Virus record (IMG/VR): IMGVR_UViG_3300003690_003177
Coordinates: 1 to 25,268 of that record
Strand: one strand, 5' to 3'
Length of the DNA: 25,268 nucleotides
Origin: a virus
Shown: positions 736 to 25,268 of the stretch, in pieces
How positions within the stretch are numbered: position 1 is the first letter of the stretch
How the letters are laid out: each line of letters starts with the position of its first letter
Made by a program: the position numbers and the translations under genes
Notes under the pieces: model-generated
What the model saw: the letters and a program-made list of their open reading frames with translations, nothing else
Told to the model about the DNA's origin: nothing
Databases searched by the model: none

Positions 736-754
736 ACTATTTATATGTGAAAAA
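736..754 (+). promoter_or_regulatory. Putative phage late promoter element (ACTATTTATATGTGAAAA)
   Basis: The gap between the recombinase and the next gene holds ACTATTTATATGTGAAAA. The same 18 bases occur at 18204-18221, and the first 10 occur at 25168-25177. Each copy is intergenic and lies 26-42 bases upstream of an ATG that has GGAG exactly 8 bases before it. No TTGACA box accompanies it, so it is probably read by a phage-modified polymerase, by analogy with the single-box late promoters of T4-like phages. TATTTATA is the reverse complement of T4's TATAAATA, so the identification is by analogy only. Confidence 0.45.
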
Positions 755-778: not shown

Positions 779-1123
779 ATGAAGGTCACAAAGAGACAAT
801 TGAAGCAATTAATCAGAGAAGAAATAGAGAGTGTGATGAGTCATCAAGATCCCAATATTCAAAAAATTGAAAACATTATATATAGTCTTCCAAACGTCTC
901 TAGAGATAATTTTGAACTTCACATAGAGCACGATCCAGAATACGATGGCGGAGAATATATAGTATTTCATTCTGGGTATGCGATGGAGAAATTGGCTTCT
1001 CTCGCTGGGCTACGAATGGGGCACGAGATCGCTTCGATGTTTGAGGATGCTGGATTTGAGGTCGGCGAGACATGGAGTATGAAAGAGCCCGTTGTGCTTA
1101 TCGACCCAAAAGCAGAGAGATAA
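779..1123 (+). CDS. Small protein with N-terminal tag-like helix, function unknown
   Basis: This is a 114-residue protein of unknown function. Residues 1-19 form a basic-then-acidic amphipathic helix (MKVTKRQLKQLIREEIESV). Similar leaders are common at the start of unrelated proteins in large marine phages and resemble the capsid-targeting sequences that T4 removes with its head protease. The remainder (about 25-110) is a small alpha/beta domain containing YDGGEYIVFHSG and ending with VVLIDPKAER; I do not recognise it. GGAG at 767-770 supports the ATG start. The gene stands alone between a putative late promoter and the sigma-70 promoter of the next operon, so it may be expressed late and packaged. 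That role is inferred. Confidence 0.7.
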   Translation: MKVTKRQLKQLIREEIESVMSHQDPNIQKIENIIYSLPNVSRDNFELHIEHDPEYDGGEYIVFHSGYAMEKLASLAGLRMGHEIASMFEDAGFEVGETWSMKEPVVLIDPKAER

Positions 1124-5995: not shown

Positions 5996-6226
5996 ATGAA
6001 CTTTAATCATTTAATGGAAAAGCGCACTCTTTTGCGAAGATGTGCTAAAAAATACCACAAGGAGTGTTACTGGCGCCCAATGAACCCTATTCGCGCGACC
6101 ACAGGCAAACATGTCTGCATTACTATGTATTGTAAATATTGTGACAAACGTGAGGATATATTTTTGTCAGAAAAACAATATAAAATTCAAGAAAAGATAA
6201 TATTAAGGGAGATTGAAAGTGTTTAA
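5996..6226 (+). CDS. Small Cys-rich basic protein, function unknown
   Basis: A 76-residue basic protein with cysteines at 16, 24, 41, 46 and 49. C46-K-Y-C49 is a zinc-ribbon-like knuckle, and a helical Lys/Glu-rich tail follows. I recognise no family. The ATG at 5996 is preferred to one at 5975 because TAGGAG (5985-5990) lies 5 bases before it and because it avoids overlapping the reductase gene. The gene sits between the reductase and the co-chaperonin and overlaps the latter by 8 bases. It could bind zinc and nucleic acid, but nothing in the sequence shows this directly. Confidence 0.65.
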   Translation: MNFNHLMEKRTLLRRCAKKYHKECYWRPMNPIRATTGKHVCITMYCKYCDKREDIFLSEKQYKIQEKIILREIESV

Positions 6227-6491
6227 GCCCCTAAATCGCTATATTTTAATTAATCCCACAAAAATTGAAACGGATACGACAGAATCGTTGATCGTCCTTC
6301 CAGATGATTATAAGGCTGCGGAGGAAAGATACATCGAAGTAGCCGCCATTGCGAGTGCACCAGACGTTCGTTTTGATATAAAACCGGACACAAAGCTCGT
6401 AGTAGATGCGTCCATGATTGAGGAAATAAGTATCGGCAGAACTATTTATAACATCATTCTAGACAATTATGTTGTTGGAATGATTAGCTAA
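6219..6491 (+). CDS. GroES/gp31-like co-chaperonin
   Basis: A 90-residue GroES-fold protein, the lid partner of a GroEL chaperonin. The N-terminal FKPLNRYILINPTKIETDTT matches the start of the GroES beta-barrel (compare IRPLHDRVIVKRKE in GroES). A mobile-loop-like stretch with a hydrophobic tripeptide follows (SLIVLPDDY, about residues 24-32), then a barrel ending with NIILDNYVVGMIS. GTG at 6219, 7 bases after AAGGGAG, is a better start than TTG at 6213, which is only 1 base from that site. The cognate phage GroEL is probably the one encoded at 21540, about 15 kb away, although T4 gp31 shows that such a protein may instead work with host GroEL. Confidence 0.82.
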   Translation: MFKPLNRYILINPTKIETDTTESLIVLPDDYKAAEERYIEVAAIASAPDVRFDIKPDTKLVVDASMIEEISIGRTIYNIILDNYVVGMIS

Positions 6492-6508: not shown

Positions 6509-7441
6509 ATGGACAAACATTTTTACAACGAGGCCTCCGCCAAGAAATTAGGATGGGAGCCTAACTGGTTTGGTGAAAAATATTTTGACGACAAGCTTGT
6601 AAGGGCCATTAAGAAATGGCAGCGTGTACGGAGCCTTAATGCAGATGGTTTATGCGGGCCTATGACCTTTCGTCGCCTTTGGACCGAACGGCAGGCAGAG
6701 ATAGGCGATTATAAGCCTAGCGACTGTTATTATTCAAATTACATCGTCTACAACGGTGAATTTTTTCCGATTGAGTGGGACAAGTGTGTGCTGTGGTCTG
6801 AAAAAGGCGGCATGCAAGCCAAGCCTGGACATTTTTATGATTATTCCGGGCGCCCTAAGCGCAAGATTCGCTATTTTGTGAATCATTGGGATGTGTGCCT
6901 CTCATCAAAATCCTGCCAGAGCGTGCTTAATAAACGCGGAATATCCGTTCACTTTTTGATCGACAATGACGGTACCATATATCAGACACTCGACATGCAA
7001 CACGCAGCATGGCATGCGGGTTCTTCGCGCACCAATCGTCCCTCGGTGGGAGTCGAGATTACTAACGCATATTATCCCAAATACCAAGAATGGTATGTAA
7101 AGCATGGGTTTGGAGAACGCCCCGTCATCGAGGATGCCTGGGTGCATCGTAGTCACCTTGACCCGTTCTTGGGTTTCTATCCCGAACAGATAAAGGCGGC
7201 GAAAGCGTTGTGGAAGGCCATCCACGGGGCTACCGGGATTCCCTATGAAACCCCTGTTAGTCAATTTGGGAAAACATCTACCCAGTATGTACAAGATGTA
7301 GCATATGGAAAGTTTTCGGGCTTTGTGAGTCACTACCACATTAGCAAAAGCAAGATTGATTGTGCAGGCCTTGACATTAAAACTCTCTTAGACGAAACGG
7401 AACACGACATCGAGATTTTAGACACACTCAAACAGGACTAA
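6509..7441 (+). CDS. Endolysin: N-acetylmuramoyl-L-alanine amidase with peptidoglycan-binding domain
   Basis: A two-domain lysin of 310 residues. The N-terminus (about 1-62) is a PG_binding_1-type repeat (LVRAIKKWQRVRSLNADGLCGPMTFRRL). The rest is an amidase_2/T7-lysozyme-like domain, with likely zinc ligands H126 (VNHWD), H277 and C285 (SHYHISKSKIDC). The 8-residue H-to-C spacing matches H122/C130 of T7 lysozyme. HFLIDNDGTIYQTLDMQHAAWHAG is the family's central block. No signal peptide or membrane segment is visible, so a holin elsewhere would be needed to release it. ATG 6509 lies 8 bases after GAGGTG; an out-of-frame ATG at 6505 opens only a short frame. The next gene encodes a probable exported protease, suggesting a small lysis or envelope-attack module. 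Confidence 0.9.
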   Translation: MDKHFYNEASAKKLGWEPNWFGEKYFDDKLVRAIKKWQRVRSLNADGLCGPMTFRRLWTERQAEIGDYKPSDCYYSNYIVYNGEFFPIEWDKCVLWSEKGGMQAKPGHFYDYSGRPKRKIRYFVNHWDVCLSSKSCQSVLNKRGISVHFLIDNDGTIYQTLDMQHAAWHAGSSRTNRPSVGVEITNAYYPKYQEWYVKHGFGERPVIEDAWVHRSHLDPFLGFYPEQIKAAKALWKAIHGATGIPYETPVSQFGKTSTQYVQDVAYGKFSGFVSHYHISKSKIDCAGLDIKTLLDETEHDIEILDTLKQD

Positions 7442-13478: not shown

Positions 13479-14078
13479 ATGAAAGAAATTAAATTGTGGA
13501 AAAATCGAACCGAGGTGTCGGATAAGGTGGCTATCGTAGATGATGAGGATTATGATAAGGTTATAGGCGCCATTAGCAAGCGCGCCAAGTGGTATGCTCA
13601 CAAAGCCCCTCCTTCAAAAAAGTTTTATGTTGTGAGTGGGCCCAGAGATATTTTAATGCATCGCGTAGTGATGAATGCTCCGGAGGGTATGGATGTTGAT
13701 CACATAAGTGGAGATCCGCTCGACAACAGAAAAGAAAATTTGAGAATCTGCACAAGAAGTGAAAACTGTAGAAACAAAAATGTAAGAGCTGATAGTAAAT
13801 CAGGATACAAAGGCGTCGAATATGTGAAAAACCCTGCATACGAAAGATATTTGAAACACGGTCCGGCATTAAATAAAGATGGTTTGCCTCGCAAGGCTCA
13901 ACCTGAACCATTTAAAAAGCCATGGCGAGCGTACATTGGGAGTGTTGATAAAAAAAATACTCACATATTTATTGGATATTTTTCCACCCCCGAAGAGGGC
14001 GCCATGGCATATGATAAAAAAGCAGCAGAACTCCACGGCGAATTCGCCCTCTTAAATTTTCCAGAGGACAACCTGTGA
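13479..14078 (+). CDS. HNH homing endonuclease with AP2 DNA-binding domain
   Basis: A 199-residue free-standing endonuclease. The HNH nuclease core spans about residues 60-100: H61, D74-H75 in VDHISGDPLDN, the Asn of NRKENLRICT, then NCRNKN. The C-terminal AP2-like domain (about 108-195) contains SGYKGVEY, WRAYIGSV, the IGYFSTPEEGAMAYDKKAAELHG block and a closing NFP. Such HNH-AP2 genes spread by cutting alleles that lack them. It begins 2 bases after dnaE and overlaps the clpP-like gene by 4 bases (GTGA), donating that gene's ribosome site, so it is fully integrated in the operon. Catalytic residues look intact. It is the only clear selfish element in the window. Confidence 0.9.
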   Translation: MKEIKLWKNRTEVSDKVAIVDDEDYDKVIGAISKRAKWYAHKAPPSKKFYVVSGPRDILMHRVVMNAPEGMDVDHISGDPLDNRKENLRICTRSENCRNKNVRADSKSGYKGVEYVKNPAYERYLKHGPALNKDGLPRKAQPEPFKKPWRAYIGSVDKKNTHIFIGYFSTPEEGAMAYDKKAAELHGEFALLNFPEDNL

Positions 14079-14680
14079 ACGTCATAAGACACTTTAGCCC
14101 GCTCCTAAAAGAACCCAAACTGATAGACGATTTGCCTGTGGTGATTCGAGTGAGGAAGTTTGATGAAACGGCGGCCAAAGAGTTTACAGGTTTAATGAGG
14201 AAAGCGCAGAATACAGGGCAACCTGTCATTCCGGTGATAGTAGATAGTTATGGGGGTCAAGTGTATAGTTTAATGTCTATGATCTCCGATATTAAACATT
14301 CCCCACTTCCAGTTGTTACAATTGCACAAGGAAAAGCCATGTCCTGTGGTGCTCTTCTATTTAGTTTTGGAACCGAAGGATACCGCTACATGGACCCCGA
14401 TGCCACTTTAATGATTCATGATGTAAGTTCTATGAAATGGGGAAAAGTGGAGGAAATAAAGGCGGGTGCTGAGGAAACTGAAAGACTTAATAAAAAAGTT
14501 TATCAAATGATGTCTAAAAATTGTGGACACCCCAAAAATTATTTTTTGGATATTATTCACACAAAGGGACACGCTGATTGGTTTCTAGACGCGCAAGAAG
14601 CCAAAAAGCATAACCTAGCCAATCATTTGCGCGTCCCAACTTTAAAGATAGATGTCGATGTCAACTTTAAATTTAGATAG
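14075..14680 (+). CDS. ClpP-like serine protease, copy 1 (catalytic Asp replaced by Asn?)
   Basis: A 201-residue ClpP-fold protein. The nucleophile is S90 in GKAMSCGAL and the general base H115 in LMIHDVSS; VDSYGGQVYSLMSM gives the oxyanion-side Gly-Gly block. Aligning LDAQEAKKHNLANHL with the ClpP motif TAEEAKEYGLIDEV puts N183 where the catalytic Asp normally stands. It may thus be weakened, regulated, or use another acid. The start is GTG 14075, 7 bases after GAGG (14064-14067). No propeptide is obvious. It may complex with the second ClpP-like protein (19263), with host ClpX or ClpA, or act in head maturation, since some phage head proteases share this fold. No Clp ATPase is encoded in the window. 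Confidence 0.85.
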   Translation: MNVIRHFSPLLKEPKLIDDLPVVIRVRKFDETAAKEFTGLMRKAQNTGQPVIPVIVDSYGGQVYSLMSMISDIKHSPLPVVTIAQGKAMSCGALLFSFGTEGYRYMDPDATLMIHDVSSMKWGKVEEIKAGAEETERLNKKVYQMMSKNCGHPKNYFLDIIHTKGHADWFLDAQEAKKHNLANHLRVPTLKIDVDVNFKFR

Positions 14681-14704: not shown

Positions 14705-14733
14705 TTGACACCCCTTATCTGCGGTGTTATAAT
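14705..14733 (+). promoter_or_regulatory. Consensus sigma-70 promoter, TTGACA-17-TATAAT
   Basis: Perfect -35 (14705-14710) and -10 (14728-14733) boxes 17 bases apart lie in an 88-base intergenic gap, giving a leader of about 30 bases before the AGGAGGG ribosome site of the gene at 14769. The spacer carries ACACC-N10-GGTGT, a possible operator. It should drive the operon that runs to about 18176. Confidence 0.92.
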
Positions 14734-14768: not shown

Positions 14769-15026
14769 ATGGCAACCACAAACCAAGAAAAGAAACAATA
14801 TGTTAAGGAGTATATCCGCTCCCTGTCAGCAATTGAAGAATGCATTGAGCCTTATCAGGAACAAAAGCGTGACCTACGCTCAGAGTTTCGTGAGAATGGC
14901 TGGCTCAACACAGACGAGATTCGCGCAGCAGTAAAGGCATATCGGCTTTACAAGCAAAAGTACAATATTGACGAGGTTGTCGAGAACTTCATTATAATCA
15001 CTGGCGGCAACTCTGATGATTCTTGA
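14769..15026 (+). CDS. Small helical protein, GapR/DUF2312-like in appearance
   Basis: An 85-residue, mostly helical protein, first in a strongly promoted operon and preceded by AGGAGGG. The layout of residues 20-65 (IEECIEPYQEQKRDLRSEF, then RENGWLNTDEIRAAVKAY) resembles the helix-'NGF/NGW'-helix pattern of GapR/DUF2312 DNA-binding proteins, which bind overtwisted DNA at replication forks. The likeness is by eye and could be chance; no catalytic motif is present. It overlaps the dUTPase gene by 11 bases. TTGACG-19-TATAAT at 14968-14998 could give a weak internal promoter for dUTPase. Strong expression and position among replication genes fit a small DNA-associated protein. Confidence 0.6.
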   Translation: MATTNQEKKQYVKEYIRSLSAIEECIEPYQEQKRDLRSEFRENGWLNTDEIRAAVKAYRLYKQKYNIDEVVENFIIITGGNSDDS

Positions 15027-17599: not shown

Positions 17600-17928
17600 T
17601 GAGCTTAGAGATAGACTACGGAAATTTAAATAAGCGAATAGTGTTCACAGAAAATGATCATAGGCATGCTAAATTGCTCGTAAGATTACGCTATGATGGC
17701 TTGACTCAGTCCGACTTTTTTCGCCACTTAATCACGGGCTATATTGACGGTGATGAGAGGATTCAGGAATTTATAGATAGTGTAAAAACGCAATCCCTCA
17801 AAAAGAAAGGTAAGTCTAAAAAACTGCGCCAACAAGGAAAACAAAAAAGCCAAGAACTCGGATTGGGGGAGCAGAATTTGATCGAAGATCTTTTCGATTT
17901 AATTGCCGAAGAGCACCCGGACCTCTGA
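17599..17928 (+). CDS. Ribbon-helix-helix-like small protein
   Basis: A 109-residue protein. KRIVFTENDHRHAKLLVRLRYDGLTQSDFFRHLITGYIDGDERIQEFI (about 11-58) has the strand-helix-helix order of ribbon-helix-helix DNA-binding domains. A Lys-rich segment follows (about 64-86), then an acidic amphipathic end (NLIEDLFDLIAEE). ATG 17599 is chosen over ATG 17593 because it lies 6 bases after GGAAGGAA and makes the common TAATG junction with the preceding stop. DNA or RNA binding is plausible, and it may be a regulator paired with the sigma-like gene immediately downstream (TGATG overlap). The family is not identified with certainty. Confidence 0.68.
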   Translation: MSLEIDYGNLNKRIVFTENDHRHAKLLVRLRYDGLTQSDFFRHLITGYIDGDERIQEFIDSVKTQSLKKKGKSKKLRQQGKQKSQELGLGEQNLIEDLFDLIAEEHPDL

Positions 17929-18176
17929 TGACAGATGGATTACTGGCCTGCTCGCGATTATGTCGCCAAAAAAACATTATTTGTAATCAAGAAGAGTGTC
18001 GGTTTTGGATCCACTACACCCCTGAATTTAATTGTTGCTTAATATCTATCAAAGAGAACGGATGTATGACATTGCGAGAAATTGGCGAGCGTTTGGGAAT
18101 CTCTTTTGCACGAGTAAAACAGATAGAAACTAAAGCCCTTAAAAAAATGAAAAGGAATTCTTTGCTTACATCATAA
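17928..18176 (+). CDS. Sigma-70 region 4-like helix-turn-helix protein with Cys-rich N-terminus
   Basis: An 82-residue protein. Residues 47-75 (MTLREIGERLGISFARVKQ, then IETKALKKMK) closely match sigma-70 region 4.2, the helix-turn-helix that reads the -35 box. There is no region 2, so it cannot act as a full sigma factor. The N-terminal half has C8-X3-C12-X6-C19-X4-C24, plus C36, C37 and C46, possibly a zinc or iron-sulfur site. Such proteins could bind DNA, block or replace host region 4, or serve as a middle/late co-activator. It is the last gene of the 14705 operon and is followed directly by a putative late promoter at 18204, which fits an early-to-late switch. That link is inferred. Confidence 0.8.
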   Translation: MTDGLLACSRLCRQKNIICNQEECRFWIHYTPEFNCCLISIKENGCMTLREIGERLGISFARVKQIETKALKKMKRNSLLTS

Positions 18177-18203: not shown

Positions 18204-18221
18204 ACTATTTATATGTGAAAA
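18204..18221 (+). promoter_or_regulatory. Putative phage late promoter element, second copy
   Basis: ACTATTTATATGTGAAAA is identical over 18 bases to the copy at 736-753. It lies in the 66-base gap ahead of the acidic head-core-like gene, 39 bases before its ATG. There is no -35 box at the right distance. Confidence 0.5.
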
Positions 18222-18242: not shown

Positions 18243-18785
18243 ATGGGCCGCAAGACATTACTTAATGAGAGCGAAATTCGTAAATTTATGAAGCTAGCTC
18301 AGCTTTCACCAATTACACCGGTGCGGCTCACCGAGATGGGATATCCCCCCGGTCAGCGTGATGAAGAAGGAATAGAAGACGTAGAAGGTGTCGAAATGGA
18401 TATGGGCGGTGGTGAAGAGTTAGGCATTGAAGACGAAGAAGAAGTGGAATTGGGTGGCGAAGACGACATGGGCCTAGAAGACGAGGGTGGCGCCGACATG
18501 GTTTCAGTCGATGATTTTATGGATGCTTTAGAGACGGCTCTAGAAGATACCCTCGGCGAACCTACTAGTATTGAAATGGACACCGGTGAAGAAGAAGTTG
18601 AAGCAGGCGAGGAAGAATTAGCGCTTGGACCGGAAGGTGGCGAAGAAGAGATGATGGGTGCCGAAGAGGAAGAAATTGTGGCCGAAGTTGCACGCCGCGT
18701 AGCAGCGCGCCTGATGAATGAAAAGCGCAGCGATGTCATTGCTACACAACTAGCCGAACGAATCTTTAAGAGATTAACGAAGTAA
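18243..18785 (+). CDS. Very acidic head-core/scaffold-like protein
   Basis: A 180-residue protein whose middle (about 38-160) is dominated by Glu, Asp, Gly and Met with no Cys, Trp or Tyr. It is flanked by an N-terminal tag-like helix (LLNESEIRKFMKLAQLSPI, 6-24) and a basic C-terminal helix (VAEVARRVAARLMNEK through FKRLTK). Acidic proteins with this build are typical of T4-type prohead cores (compare the acidic core protein gp67), and the leader resembles capsid-targeting sequences. This is a compositional and positional argument, not a motif match. It has a late-type promoter, GGAG 8 bases before ATG, and a terminator shortly after it, so it forms a single-gene transcription unit. A ClpP-like protease gene lies about 480 bases downstream and could be its processing enzyme. 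Confidence 0.62.
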   Translation: MGRKTLLNESEIRKFMKLAQLSPITPVRLTEMGYPPGQRDEEGIEDVEGVEMDMGGGEELGIEDEEEVELGGEDDMGLEDEGGADMVSVDDFMDALETALEDTLGEPTSIEMDTGEEEVEAGEEELALGPEGGEEEMMGAEEEEIVAEVARRVAARLMNEKRSDVIATQLAERIFKRLTK

Positions 18786-18792
18786 CTTTAAC

Positions 18793-18821
18793 TTGACAAT
18801 TAACCTTAAATCGGTTATAAT
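18793..18821 (+). promoter_or_regulatory. Consensus sigma-70 promoter, TTGACA-17-TATAAT
   Basis: TTGACA (18793-18798) and TATAAT (18816-18821) are 17 bases apart, right after the acidic gene. The spacer carries TAACC-N7-GGTTA (18801-18817), a possible operator overlapping the -10. It should express the membrane-protein, ClpP-like and tagged-protein genes. The predicted start (about 18828) falls inside the left arm of the adjoining terminator. Confidence 0.92.
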
Positions 18822-18865: not shown

Positions 18866-19273
18866 ATGAATTGGTGGCTTTACCTATTAGCTTTTATATT
18901 TGGATACGTAACCTGTAGAGCTTTTTACTTTCTACGAGTTAGCCGGCTCAGTATATCCCTTTTAAAGATATCCCAGATTGTTTATCTATCAACTCTCGTA
19001 AAGGCACTCGAACATCTTTCTTATGCTCGCGAAATAATGCTTGAACATATGTTGAAGACAGAAAAAGGAAGTACCCAAATTAGCACCTTTCAATATCGAT
19101 TTGAGGAAGACGTACGTATATTAAAAGAAAAGTCTATTCGGGAACTTCTCAACCAACACCCCAAGGTCTTTCGTAACATAATTGAATTTGACGATTGGCC
19201 TTCAGCGATGAGATATTTGATGGAACACAAAGCAGAGACATTGGCATTTTGGGAGAGAGATAATGATCAATAA
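18866..19273 (+). CDS. Membrane-anchored small protein, function unknown
   Basis: A 135-residue protein with one N-terminal hydrophobic segment (WWLYLLAFIFGYVTCRAFYFL, residues 3-23) followed by a mostly helical cytoplasmic-type domain (about 30-130) rich in Leu, Glu and Lys. I recognise no family. GAGGTGAT just before the ATG is a good ribosome site. The gene is first after a consensus promoter and overlaps the ClpP-like protease by 11 bases, so it may anchor or adapt that protease at the inner membrane. A role in superinfection exclusion or in modifying a host membrane complex is also possible. None of these is shown by the sequence. Confidence 0.7.
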   Translation: MNWWLYLLAFIFGYVTCRAFYFLRVSRLSISLLKISQIVYLSTLVKALEHLSYAREIMLEHMLKTEKGSTQISTFQYRFEEDVRILKEKSIRELLNQHPKVFRNIIEFDDWPSAMRYLMEHKAETLAFWERDNDQ

Positions 19274-19907
19274 AATAAAAGAAAAAATAAATACCTTTAT
19301 CACCAATTTAGAAGAAGAACCAGAAGAAGAAAACAAAATTATTTTGGTTGATCCTGGTGGTCACAAAAACGAACCAGACATGAGAGTGATTGGTCTTTTT
19401 GCAGATGTAGTAGAAGACAAAGTGGCAGAATTAGTCCACGCTTTTTTATATTTAAATGAACTAAACAACGAAGAAAAAAACCCAAAGAACAAAAAGCCGA
19501 TAGAGTTTTACCTTTCGACCTATGGGGGGGCCGCTGATGATATGTTTGCCCTTTATGATGTGATGCGACAAATACAACAAACCAGCGAAATTCACACGAT
19601 TGGGCTAGGAAAGGTAATGTCTGCCGGCGTTCTTTTATTGGCAGCAGGAACAAAAGGAAAAAGAAAGATAGGGAAGCATTGCCGAGTCATGCTTCACGCA
19701 GCCATGGCAGGCAGCCACGGATCTCTCCCCAACATAGTAAATGAAATGGAGGCGCTTCAAGATTTACAGGAGAGCTACATAGATGCATTAGTGGAAGAAA
19801 CAACAATGACAAAAGAAGATATTAAAAACATGTTGGAACGCAAAGTGAACGTCTATTTATCTTCAGAAGAAGCAGTAAAATTTGGTATTGCTGACATAAT
19901 TATCTGA
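19263..19907 (+). CDS. ClpP-like serine protease, copy 2 (triad complete)
   Basis: A 214-residue ClpP-fold protease with a full predicted triad: S120 (GKVMSAGVLLLAAG), H145 (CRVMLHAAMAG) and D211 (KFGIADII). STYGGAADDMFALYDVMRQI is the Gly-rich oxyanion strand and helix. A charged N-terminal extension (about 1-32, with EEEPEEENK) is longer than in bacterial ClpP. It is only distantly similar to the first ClpP-like protein (14075), so the two did not arise by recent duplication. They could form a mixed ring, as ClpP/ClpR do in cyanobacteria, with copy 1 the catalytically altered subunit. Its neighbours are an acidic head-core-like gene and a protein with a duplicated tag, which hints at virion maturation. 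No unfoldase is visible. Confidence 0.9.
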   Translation: MINKIKEKINTFITNLEEEPEEENKIILVDPGGHKNEPDMRVIGLFADVVEDKVAELVHAFLYLNELNNEEKNPKNKKPIEFYLSTYGGAADDMFALYDVMRQIQQTSEIHTIGLGKVMSAGVLLLAAGTKGKRKIGKHCRVMLHAAMAGSHGSLPNIVNEMEALQDLQESYIDALVEETTMTKEDIKNMLERKVNVYLSSEEAVKFGIADIII

Positions 19908-21482: not shown

Positions 21483-21488
21483 ATAACT

Positions 21489-21517
21489 TGACATTCTGGT
21501 CAAATGTGATTATAATA
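21489..21517 (+). promoter_or_regulatory. Consensus sigma-70 promoter, TTGACA-17-TATAAT
   Basis: TTGACA (21489-21494) and TATAAT (21512-21517), 17 bases apart, lie in the 57-base gap before the GroEL gene. Two short inverted repeats overlap the spacer: TTGAC-N6-GTCAA (21489-21504) and ACATT-N7-AATGT (21492-21508). Neither resembles the CIRCE heat-shock operator. Confidence 0.92.
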
Positions 21518-21539: not shown

Positions 21540-23129
21540 ATGAGCCGAGCATATGATGACAGCCAAACACTACAACAAAAGATAATGAACGGAGCGAACA
21601 AGCTCGCAGATAACGTAGCATCGACACTTGGTCCACGCGGCCGAAATGTTCTGTTACAAGAGAAAGGAAAAATGCCCTTCATCACAAAAGATGGGGTGAC
21701 AGTAGCTCATTTTGTGGAACTAGAAGATCCTTTCGAAGACGCTGCGGTCCAAATTATTAAGCAAGCAGCTATCGAAACCAACAACACTGCTGGGGATGGC
21801 ACCACCACTGCTACAATATTAGCGCGCTCTATTCTAAGAGAGGCACAGAGACACATTGCAGCCGGCGTCTCCCCCATCGAAATTCAACGCGGAATTAATT
21901 TGGCCCTTAAGGAAATACTGAATAACCTATCAGATATGGCGATACAGGTTACCTCATTGGAGGATATTAGACACGTTGCCACGATTGCCGCCAACAACGA
22001 CCGCATCATTGGGGATCTCATTGCAATGGCAGTGGATCGGGTGGGGCAAGATGGAGCTATTACTATCGAGGAATCACGTTCGCTTGAAACTTCTATCGAT
22101 ATTGTTGAGGGTTTTAAATTTAATTCAGGGTATTGCGCCGGCGCATTTATAACGGATGAGCGACGAGCCATGATGTATTACGAGGAACCCTTTTTCCTCA
22201 TTACTGATTATAAAATTTCTACCGTAGATCAAATTCTGCCCATTCTAGAAATGGTGGCCCGGGAAGGCCGCCCACTCGTTGTGGTGGCAGAAGATATAGA
22301 AGGGCAAGCATTGGCCGCTATAATTATGAATGCGATCCGTGGAACACTACGCATTGCAGCTATCAAGGCACCTGCTTATGGCGAGGAACGCCGCGACACG
22401 CTAGAAGATATGGCCCTTTCTACCGGCGCAACTTTTATTTCGCGCCAAGGAGGGATACAACTAAAGGACACTCAATTAAAGCACCTAGGCTCAGCCAAAT
22501 TTGTAGAAAGTACCAAGCATCAAACTACAATTGTAGGAGGAACCTGTGATTTTGAAAGAATGGAAGAGCGAATTATCGCCCTTAAGGCTCAAATAGAACA
22601 AACTAGCGCGCTTTCGGAATGCGAAAAAATCCAAGATCGCATTACACGACTTGGTTCAGGAGTAGCAGTCGTGCGTGTAGGAGGATCGACGGAAGTGGAA
22701 ATGACGGAGAAAAAGCACCGAATTGAAGATGCTTTAGAAGCGGTAAAATCAGCCCAAGAAGAAGGGGTCGTCCCCGGTGGTGGCACCGCCCTTCTACGAG
22801 CTTCGGGGCAGATAACAATTGTTACGCCGGGAACAGAAAATACAACAGAGCAGATAAAGGGAGCTATGATCTTACGGCAAGCATGTGAAGAACCAATCCG
22901 CCAAATGGCACTTAACTCTGGGGAAGCCCCAGATTTAATTATCGATAAAATTCGACAGGCACCAACTAATTATGGATGGAACTTTAAAAGCGGAGAACTG
23001 GTTGACTTAATGGGGGAGGGAATTATTGATCCCGTAAAAGTAACAAAGGCAGCTATTAAAAATGCTGCGAGTTGTGCCGGTACCCTACTCACCACGAATT
23101 TTGGAATTATACAAACGGAGACAGGATGA
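21540..23129 (+). CDS. groEL: GroEL-type chaperonin
   Basis: A 529-residue group I chaperonin (E. coli GroEL: 548). ATPase residues align with a shift of one: D51 in ITKDGVTV, D86 in AGDGTTTAT and the catalytic D397 in RIEDAL (E. coli D52, D87, D398). VVPGGGTALL and the KAPAYGEERRDTLEDMA segment of the apical domain are standard. The apical substrate/GroES groove keeps Y and F in GYCAGAFI. It lacks the Gly-Gly-Met tail, ending IIQTETG. It likely pairs with the GroES-like protein at 6219 to fold the phage's capsid protein. Few phages carry both partners, and here they are 15 kb apart in separate transcription units. The start is ATG 21540 after CGAGGTATGA, with its own promoter. Identification is certain. 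Confidence 0.97.
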   Translation: MSRAYDDSQTLQQKIMNGANKLADNVASTLGPRGRNVLLQEKGKMPFITKDGVTVAHFVELEDPFEDAAVQIIKQAAIETNNTAGDGTTTATILARSILREAQRHIAAGVSPIEIQRGINLALKEILNNLSDMAIQVTSLEDIRHVATIAANNDRIIGDLIAMAVDRVGQDGAITIEESRSLETSIDIVEGFKFNSGYCAGAFITDERRAMMYYEEPFFLITDYKISTVDQILPILEMVAREGRPLVVVAEDIEGQALAAIIMNAIRGTLRIAAIKAPAYGEERRDTLEDMALSTGATFISRQGGIQLKDTQLKHLGSAKFVESTKHQTTIVGGTCDFERMEERIIALKAQIEQTSALSECEKIQDRITRLGSGVAVVRVGGSTEVEMTEKKHRIEDALEAVKSAQEEGVVPGGGTALLRASGQITIVTPGTENTTEQIKGAMILRQACEEPIRQMALNSGEAPDLIIDKIRQAPTNYGWNFKSGELVDLMGEGIIDPVKVTKAAIKNAASCAGTLLTTNFGIIQTETG

Positions 23130-25167: not shown

Positions 25168-25177
25168 ACTATTTATA
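25168..25177 (+). promoter_or_regulatory. Putative phage late promoter element, third copy
   Basis: ACTATTTATA recurs here, 27 bases ahead of the next ATG. After the tenth base it diverges from the other two copies. As at 736 and 18204, GGAG lies 8 bases before the start codon of the gene that follows. Confidence 0.42.
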
Positions 25178-25194
25178 ATGTTGGAGCAAAATAC

Positions 25195-25268
25195 ATGGAC
25201 ATTTCTACTGGTAGTTGGTTTAAATACCTAAACGAGAACATAAGATTAACAGAGGGTTTAAGAGACAT
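25195..25268 (+). CDS. Start of a late-type gene, cut by the window edge
   Basis: Twenty-four codons are visible, encoding MDISTGSWFKYLNENIRLTE then GLRD before the window ends. The ATG has GGAG 8 bases upstream and a putative late promoter, as for the tagged genes at 779 and 18243. The visible part is charged and helical, perhaps another tag-like leader. The function cannot be judged from this fragment. Confidence 0.55.
   Translation, partial: MDISTGSWFKYLNENIRLTEGLRD

Follow-up and report, generated by a model that had tools for sequence, protein, structure and literature searches.

In a clade of T4-related marine myoviruses, the octamer ACTAHTTA very probably serves as the late promoter box and would be read by a divergent gp55-type sigma factor. 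An element of this kind had been proposed from the sequence alone as a candidate new late promoter, and comparative evidence now supports that proposal well, through strand-specific intergenic enrichment, virion genes downstream, a single box without a -35 element, the distances to start codons and the presence in relatives of a divergent sigma resembling gp55. In the mechanism that we propose, host RNA polymerase carrying a divergent sigma of gp55 type that the phage encodes (region 2, about 240 aa) would recognise the box, one 8-bp element spanning roughly -13 to -6 without a -35 element, in the orientation of the gene, and RNA would start some 12-15 nt from the first base of this element. 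The box would thereby switch on virion and associated genes, including a downstream amidase gene served by a promoter internal to groES, and replication genes would use host-type TTGACA/TATAAT promoters. The window, the whole stretch of DNA analysed, is the entire 25,268-bp IMG/VR record, so the genome-wide test was done in relatives instead.

The window has four copies of the 10-mer ACTATTTATA, all on the + strand (736, 6441, 18204 and 25168), against 0.06 expected by chance, and none of 100 shuffles reached four. The three copies described in the sequence-only reading (736, 18204 and 25168) are all present, on the + strand and intergenic; the first two agree exactly over 18 bases, the ATG placed 27-43 bases on lies 43, 39 and 27 nt from the box start, and GGAG precedes each ATG by exactly 8 bases, all as that reading had it. 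Its statement that there was no other copy overlooked the one at 6441, within a groES-like ORF (6213-6491), which is conserved and probably functional. Copy 1 (ACTATTTA, 736-743, +) lies 43 nt upstream of the ATG of a tagged 114-aa gene (779-1123, +; N-terminal tag MKVTKRQLKQLIREEIE; no family match), with a predicted RNA start, from the spacing rule described below, at about 748-751 (+). Copy 2 (6441-6448, +) spans the groES codons ACT ATT TAT, 68 nt upstream of the amidase ATG. Copy 3 (ACTATTTA, 18204-18211, +; predicted RNA start about 18216-18219, +) lies 39 nt upstream of the ATG of a gene at 18243-18785 (+) for a tagged acidic protein (MGRKTLLNESEIRKFMKLA) that has relatives, and copy 4 (ACTATTTA, 25168-25175, +; predicted RNA start about 25180-25183, +) lies 27 nt upstream of the ATG at 25195 of a tagged gene (MDISTGSWFKYLNENIRL; 25195-25268, +) that is cut by the record end and whose homologs mostly exceed 1,100 aa.

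In the window (779-1123, 18243-18785 and 25195-25268) and in relatives (L210-L249) alike, every N-terminal tag, for example MKITKQQLKQIIKEEL or MARKTLLTESEIRRFMKLA, has [LI]xE. This is the motif cleaved by T4-type prohead proteases, and the tags may be capsid-targeting leaders. LKxIIxEE-like tags were found in 20 of 889 genes overall, in 5 of 80 genes standing first after a box and in 0 of 77 standing first after a sigma-70-type promoter.

With two proteins as queries, a DnaE-type polymerase and GroEL, 160 related loci were collected; across 2.6 Mb of them the 10-mer ACTATTTATA has 87 copies on the query-gene strand and none on the opposite one. Four long relatives were extracted whole (187-196 kb; G001, G002, G004 and G012) and searched on both strands at genome scale, as had been suggested from the window. 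Among all 8-mers, ACTATTTA was the most enriched intergenic word (56 copies vs 4.3 expected), with 104 copies on the gene strand vs 5 on the opposite strand, and the other strongly enriched intergenic words were solely of the ribosome-binding and TTGACA types. About 46 of the 104 exact copies fall in called coding sequence, some of them conserved late sites and others probably chance occurrences. When all single substitutions were scanned, variation was tolerated mainly at position 5 (12 intergenic copies of ACTAATTA, 11 of ACTACTTA), and the box is therefore ACTAHTTA, with H mostly T. Almost no information resides in its flanks, the -35 region among them, although the base directly 3' is A or T in 58 of 69 cases and a following TA is weakly preferred after ACTATTTA. 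The unit first described as 10-18 bases long thus shrinks to 8 bp; the exact 10-mer was rejected as the unit, with at most 5 copies per record in 20 relatives, and its 8-mer core retained.

The conserved first genes after the box in relatives encode baseplate wedge, tail sheath, tail tube and tagged proteins, so that the box is not restricted to tag-bearing genes such as those of the sequence-only reading. Sigma-70-type TTGACA/TATAAT sites stand in the same relatives ahead of genes for SSB, an exonuclease, DnaB helicase, GroEL, HNH and SbcC-like proteins, and the two sets are separate and largely occupy different stretches of the genome. The box itself shows no -35 signal upstream and hence lacks the TTGACA/TATAAT pair with 16-18 spacing that marks host sigma-70 promoters. 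Promoters of that type can be read from the window sequence, all on the + strand, at 1134-1162 (TTGACA-17-TATACT, ahead of the gene at 1270), 2591-2618 (TTGACT-16-TATATT, ahead of the DnaB-like helicase gene at 2643) and, with TTGACA-17-TATAAT, at 14705-14733, 18793-18821 and 21488-21516 (ahead of the genes at 14769 and 18866 and of groEL at 21540, respectively). The earlier view that genes without the element have sigma-70 promoters thus holds for several heads of transcription units in the window, but not for every gene. By inspection, two ClpP-like protease genes (14075-14680 and 19263-19907) share this 25-kb window with GroES- and GroEL-like genes.

The box is also conserved at fixed places. 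Copy 2 lies in the groES-like gene (Cpn10, PF00166; 6213-6491, +), ahead of a peptidoglycan amidase-like gene (6509-7441, +; function assigned by inspection) that it probably drives. At 23 of 23 distinct orthologous loci, ACTAHTTA is kept in groES, 59-68 nt upstream of the amidase ATG, while the codon that it spans switches among Ile, Asn and Thr; the preceding Thr is always encoded by ACT, a codon that makes up 33% of Thr codons in these genomes. As these sequences are related, the counts are non-independent trials. At the 6441 site it is clearly the DNA box that is preserved and not the protein, and the idea of a coding coincidence was rejected. The second place is the junction between a tagged gene and the gene for a protein consisting of sigma-70 region 4 only (17928-18176, +; 82 aa, Cys-rich N-terminus; PF04545, E 3e-10), where ACTAHTTA was present in 43 of 43 distinct relatives, position 5 being T in 38, A in 4 and C in 1. 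The region-4-only protein was found in 9 of 9 phages tested and is possibly a partner of the late sigma; in the window its gene sits directly before copy 3.

To place the RNA start, ATG codons opening an ORF were located relative to the box start at 557 distinct sites. Offsets 12, 13, 14 and 15 held 20, 10, 9 and 8 such codons (47 in total), offsets 16-22 held 12 altogether, and from 23 on they were again numerous, a bimodal pattern that control words did not display. These offsets are most simply read as placing the RNA start 12-15 nt from the beginning of the box, so that messages would be either leaderless or equipped with leaders that leave room for a Shine-Dalgarno sequence. This agrees with T4, where a box at -13 to -6 predicts a start at 13 nt. 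Late mRNAs without leaders are implied for a group of late genes whose ATG lies 12-15 nt from the beginning of the box (G001, G002, G004 and G012; L210-L249).

The late-sigma profile phrog_234, which represents the T4 gp55 family, matches a protein of ~240 aa in 5 of 5 long relatives (E 4e-5 to 3e-4); the gene is absent from the 25-kb window itself. An alignment of 51 such proteins and three named relatives was compared by hhalign with a set of eight gp55 proteins and matched it with a probability of 96%, colinear over 147-171 columns, and the proteins possess sigma region 2 together with the motifs that gp55 shows in its N-terminus and in this region, in colinear order. The predicted structure (mean pLDDT 80, pTM 0.44) retrieved mainly sigma factors near the top of a PDB structure search, with weak E-values, and the sigma alignment used as a profile against PDB sequences gave no match. 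Single-sequence phmmer queries with T4 gp55 or gp45 returned nothing significant, the gp55 family profile being required.

Sigma relatives recognisable over most of their length were found in only three of 50,697 phage records, namely those of Flavobacterium phage immuto, Microcystis phage Mel-JY01 and the uncultured phage LR756508; one Ochrobactrum phage gave a weak partial match. Genes that are unannotated or 'hypothetical' in the records NC_055915 (78150-78869), PP395634 (158806-159483) and LR756508 (about 100327-100995) probably encode late sigma factors. The sigma profile matches immuto at 6e-34 and Mel-JY01 at 3e-24; it gives no hit in T4 or Aeh1. From sequence comparison we infer that this sigma reads the box and that the genes behind it are expressed late. 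Searches of the five long relatives with phrog_223 and PF02767 found no clamp of the gp45 or DnaN type, so that the T4 activation circuit is not reproduced, though an unrecognised or host clamp is possible. Given this result and the occurrence of the region-4-only protein throughout the group, activation may proceed otherwise than in T4. The sigma gene also occurs in contigs binned to a Flavobacteriales MAG and an Actinomycetes MAG (L445 and L446), a contradictory host signal.

Other explanations of the box were weighed against these data. Read on the opposite strand, the T4 late box TATAAATA is exactly TATTTATA, and the sequence-only reading had therefore allowed either for a related box read in the other sense or for sites firing leftward. 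Across 159 sites in four genomes, however, an ATG opening an ORF of at least 60 aa within 60 nt was found rightward in 117 cases and leftward in 2, the 104:5 strand bias follows the gene strand, minus-strand genes have no box in their own sense, and the TA after ACTATTTA is no more than weakly preferred. A T4 box read backwards is thus not supported, leftward firing from a T4 box on the opposite strand is extremely unlikely, and the identity is best taken as a coincidence in an A/T octamer. The idea that the octamer is an A/T-rich chance word devoid of function could draw on the window alone, with its mere four copies, but that number already far exceeds the chance expectation, and enrichment and conservation in relatives refute the idea, leaving it practically no probability.

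An element acting at the RNA level in the 5' leader, as a processing site, translation enhancer or determinant of mRNA stability in transcripts from promoters further upstream, would account for the closeness of the box to start codons and for its position mostly ahead of the Shine-Dalgarno sequence. It is nonetheless a very unlikely explanation: many ATGs lie 12-15 nt from the box start, too close for a Shine-Dalgarno sequence to fit in between, and the range 16-22 nt is nearly empty, a gap that fits a transcription start rather than a leader element; the box is also kept inside groES, well ahead of the amidase ATG; and, apart from ribosome-binding and TTGACA-type words, no other intergenic word was strongly enriched. 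We regard as very unlikely that the box is a promoter for another polymerase or factor, such as a T7-like RNA polymerase or a middle-mode activator, rather than for a gp55-type sigma. Late transcription could use other enzymes and the gp55-like match is remote, but a single 8-bp box resembling a -10 element is the architecture of gp55-type promoters, and a gp55-like gene is present. No T7-like RNA polymerase was found, sub-threshold PF00940 matches being traced to a 527-aa ORF that is, by inspection in G002, the terminase large subunit.

In control phages, the upstream-word method yielded TATAAATA from T4 and GCTAAATA from Aeh1, which are the published boxes. Applied to the closest named sigma relatives, it gave TATTTATA/CTATTTAT/ACTATTTA for immuto and ATATTTAT for Mel-JY01. 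These TATTTA-type boxes precede virion genes as they do here, in immuto those for terminase, portal, sheath, tube, baseplate hub and tape measure (24-38 nt from the T of TATTTA to the ATG) and in Mel-JY01 those for terminase, tube and other proteins. The immuto (NNTATTTATA) and Mel-JY01 (NATATTTAT) boxes are looser than the present one at the first two positions, and word search found no clear TATTTA box in LR756508, the third named phage with the sigma. The link between sigma and box that these comparisons suggest is correlative and comes from three phage groups. We found in the literature no description of immuto or Mel-JY01 late promoters and no relevant paper on ACTATTTA, CTATTTAT or TATTTATA as phage promoters, and the Far-T4 paper does not mention promoters.

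With T4, whose late promoters (TATAAATA) use gp55, gp33 and the gp45 clamp, the system shares a single 8-bp box without a -35 element, virion genes downstream, A/T-rich sequence just downstream of the box, a gp55-family sigma (here in relatives) and, as deduced here from spacing, an RNA start about 13 nt from where the box begins. With both boxes set in the same sense, the letters of ACTATTTA and TATAAATA disagree at -13, -12, -9 and -8 and agree at -11, -10, -7 and -6 (TA..TA). T4 gp55 inserts the non-template bases -12, -9 and -8 into pockets (PMC7892883), so that three of the four changes from the T4 to the marine box fall in gp55 pockets. The T4 pocket residues Y97 and T99 align with Tyr and Ser/Gln in the marine, immuto and Mel-JY01 sigmas, which suggests that the pockets changed together with the box. 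In contrast to T4, gp55 homology is remote, some late genes are apparently leaderless, and no gp45-like clamp was found as activator in the five long relatives. ACTAHTTA also departs from the T4-class consensus in all its forms (TATAAATA, NATAAATA or (a/g)CTAAATA). Because of this departure and of the missing clamp match, we file the box as a T4-like working variant and not as a TATAAATA promoter, its virion genes, single box without -35 and gp55-family sigma in relatives being those of the T4 class.

The late box of Aeromonas phage Aeh1 is (a/g)CTAAATA (PMC2988020); it shares with ours AC at -13/-12 and TA..TA at -11/-10/-7/-6, and the variant ACTAATTA used here is one base away from it, whereas at -9/-8 Aeh1 has AA and the main box here TT. 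Late promoters of the cyanophages S-PM2 and Syn9 (NATAAATA; PMC2984593) likewise consist of a T4-type single box ahead of virion genes, with a core AATA as against TTTA here, and cyanophage gp55 proteins are near enough to that of T4 to be found by ordinary tblastn.

A bolder reading, which we put forward tentatively and consider less probable than its opposite, is that late transcription here is T4-like but clamp-independent, with a divergent gp55-like sigma and the region-4-only protein acting on a re-spelled -10 box, leaderless late mRNAs, and a sigma and box that diverged together from those of T4. If so, this co-divergence would span a large uncultured marine lineage. The co-change of sigma and promoter is directly testable, since three of the four changed positions are T4 gp55 pocket bases and two cultured phages, immuto and Mel-JY01, have the same sigma family. 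For an abundant and widespread group of uncultured marine phages, the box would provide an account of how late genes are regulated; it flags virion genes independently of sequence homology, aids in locating where genes begin and directs attention to a late sigma that lacks annotation.
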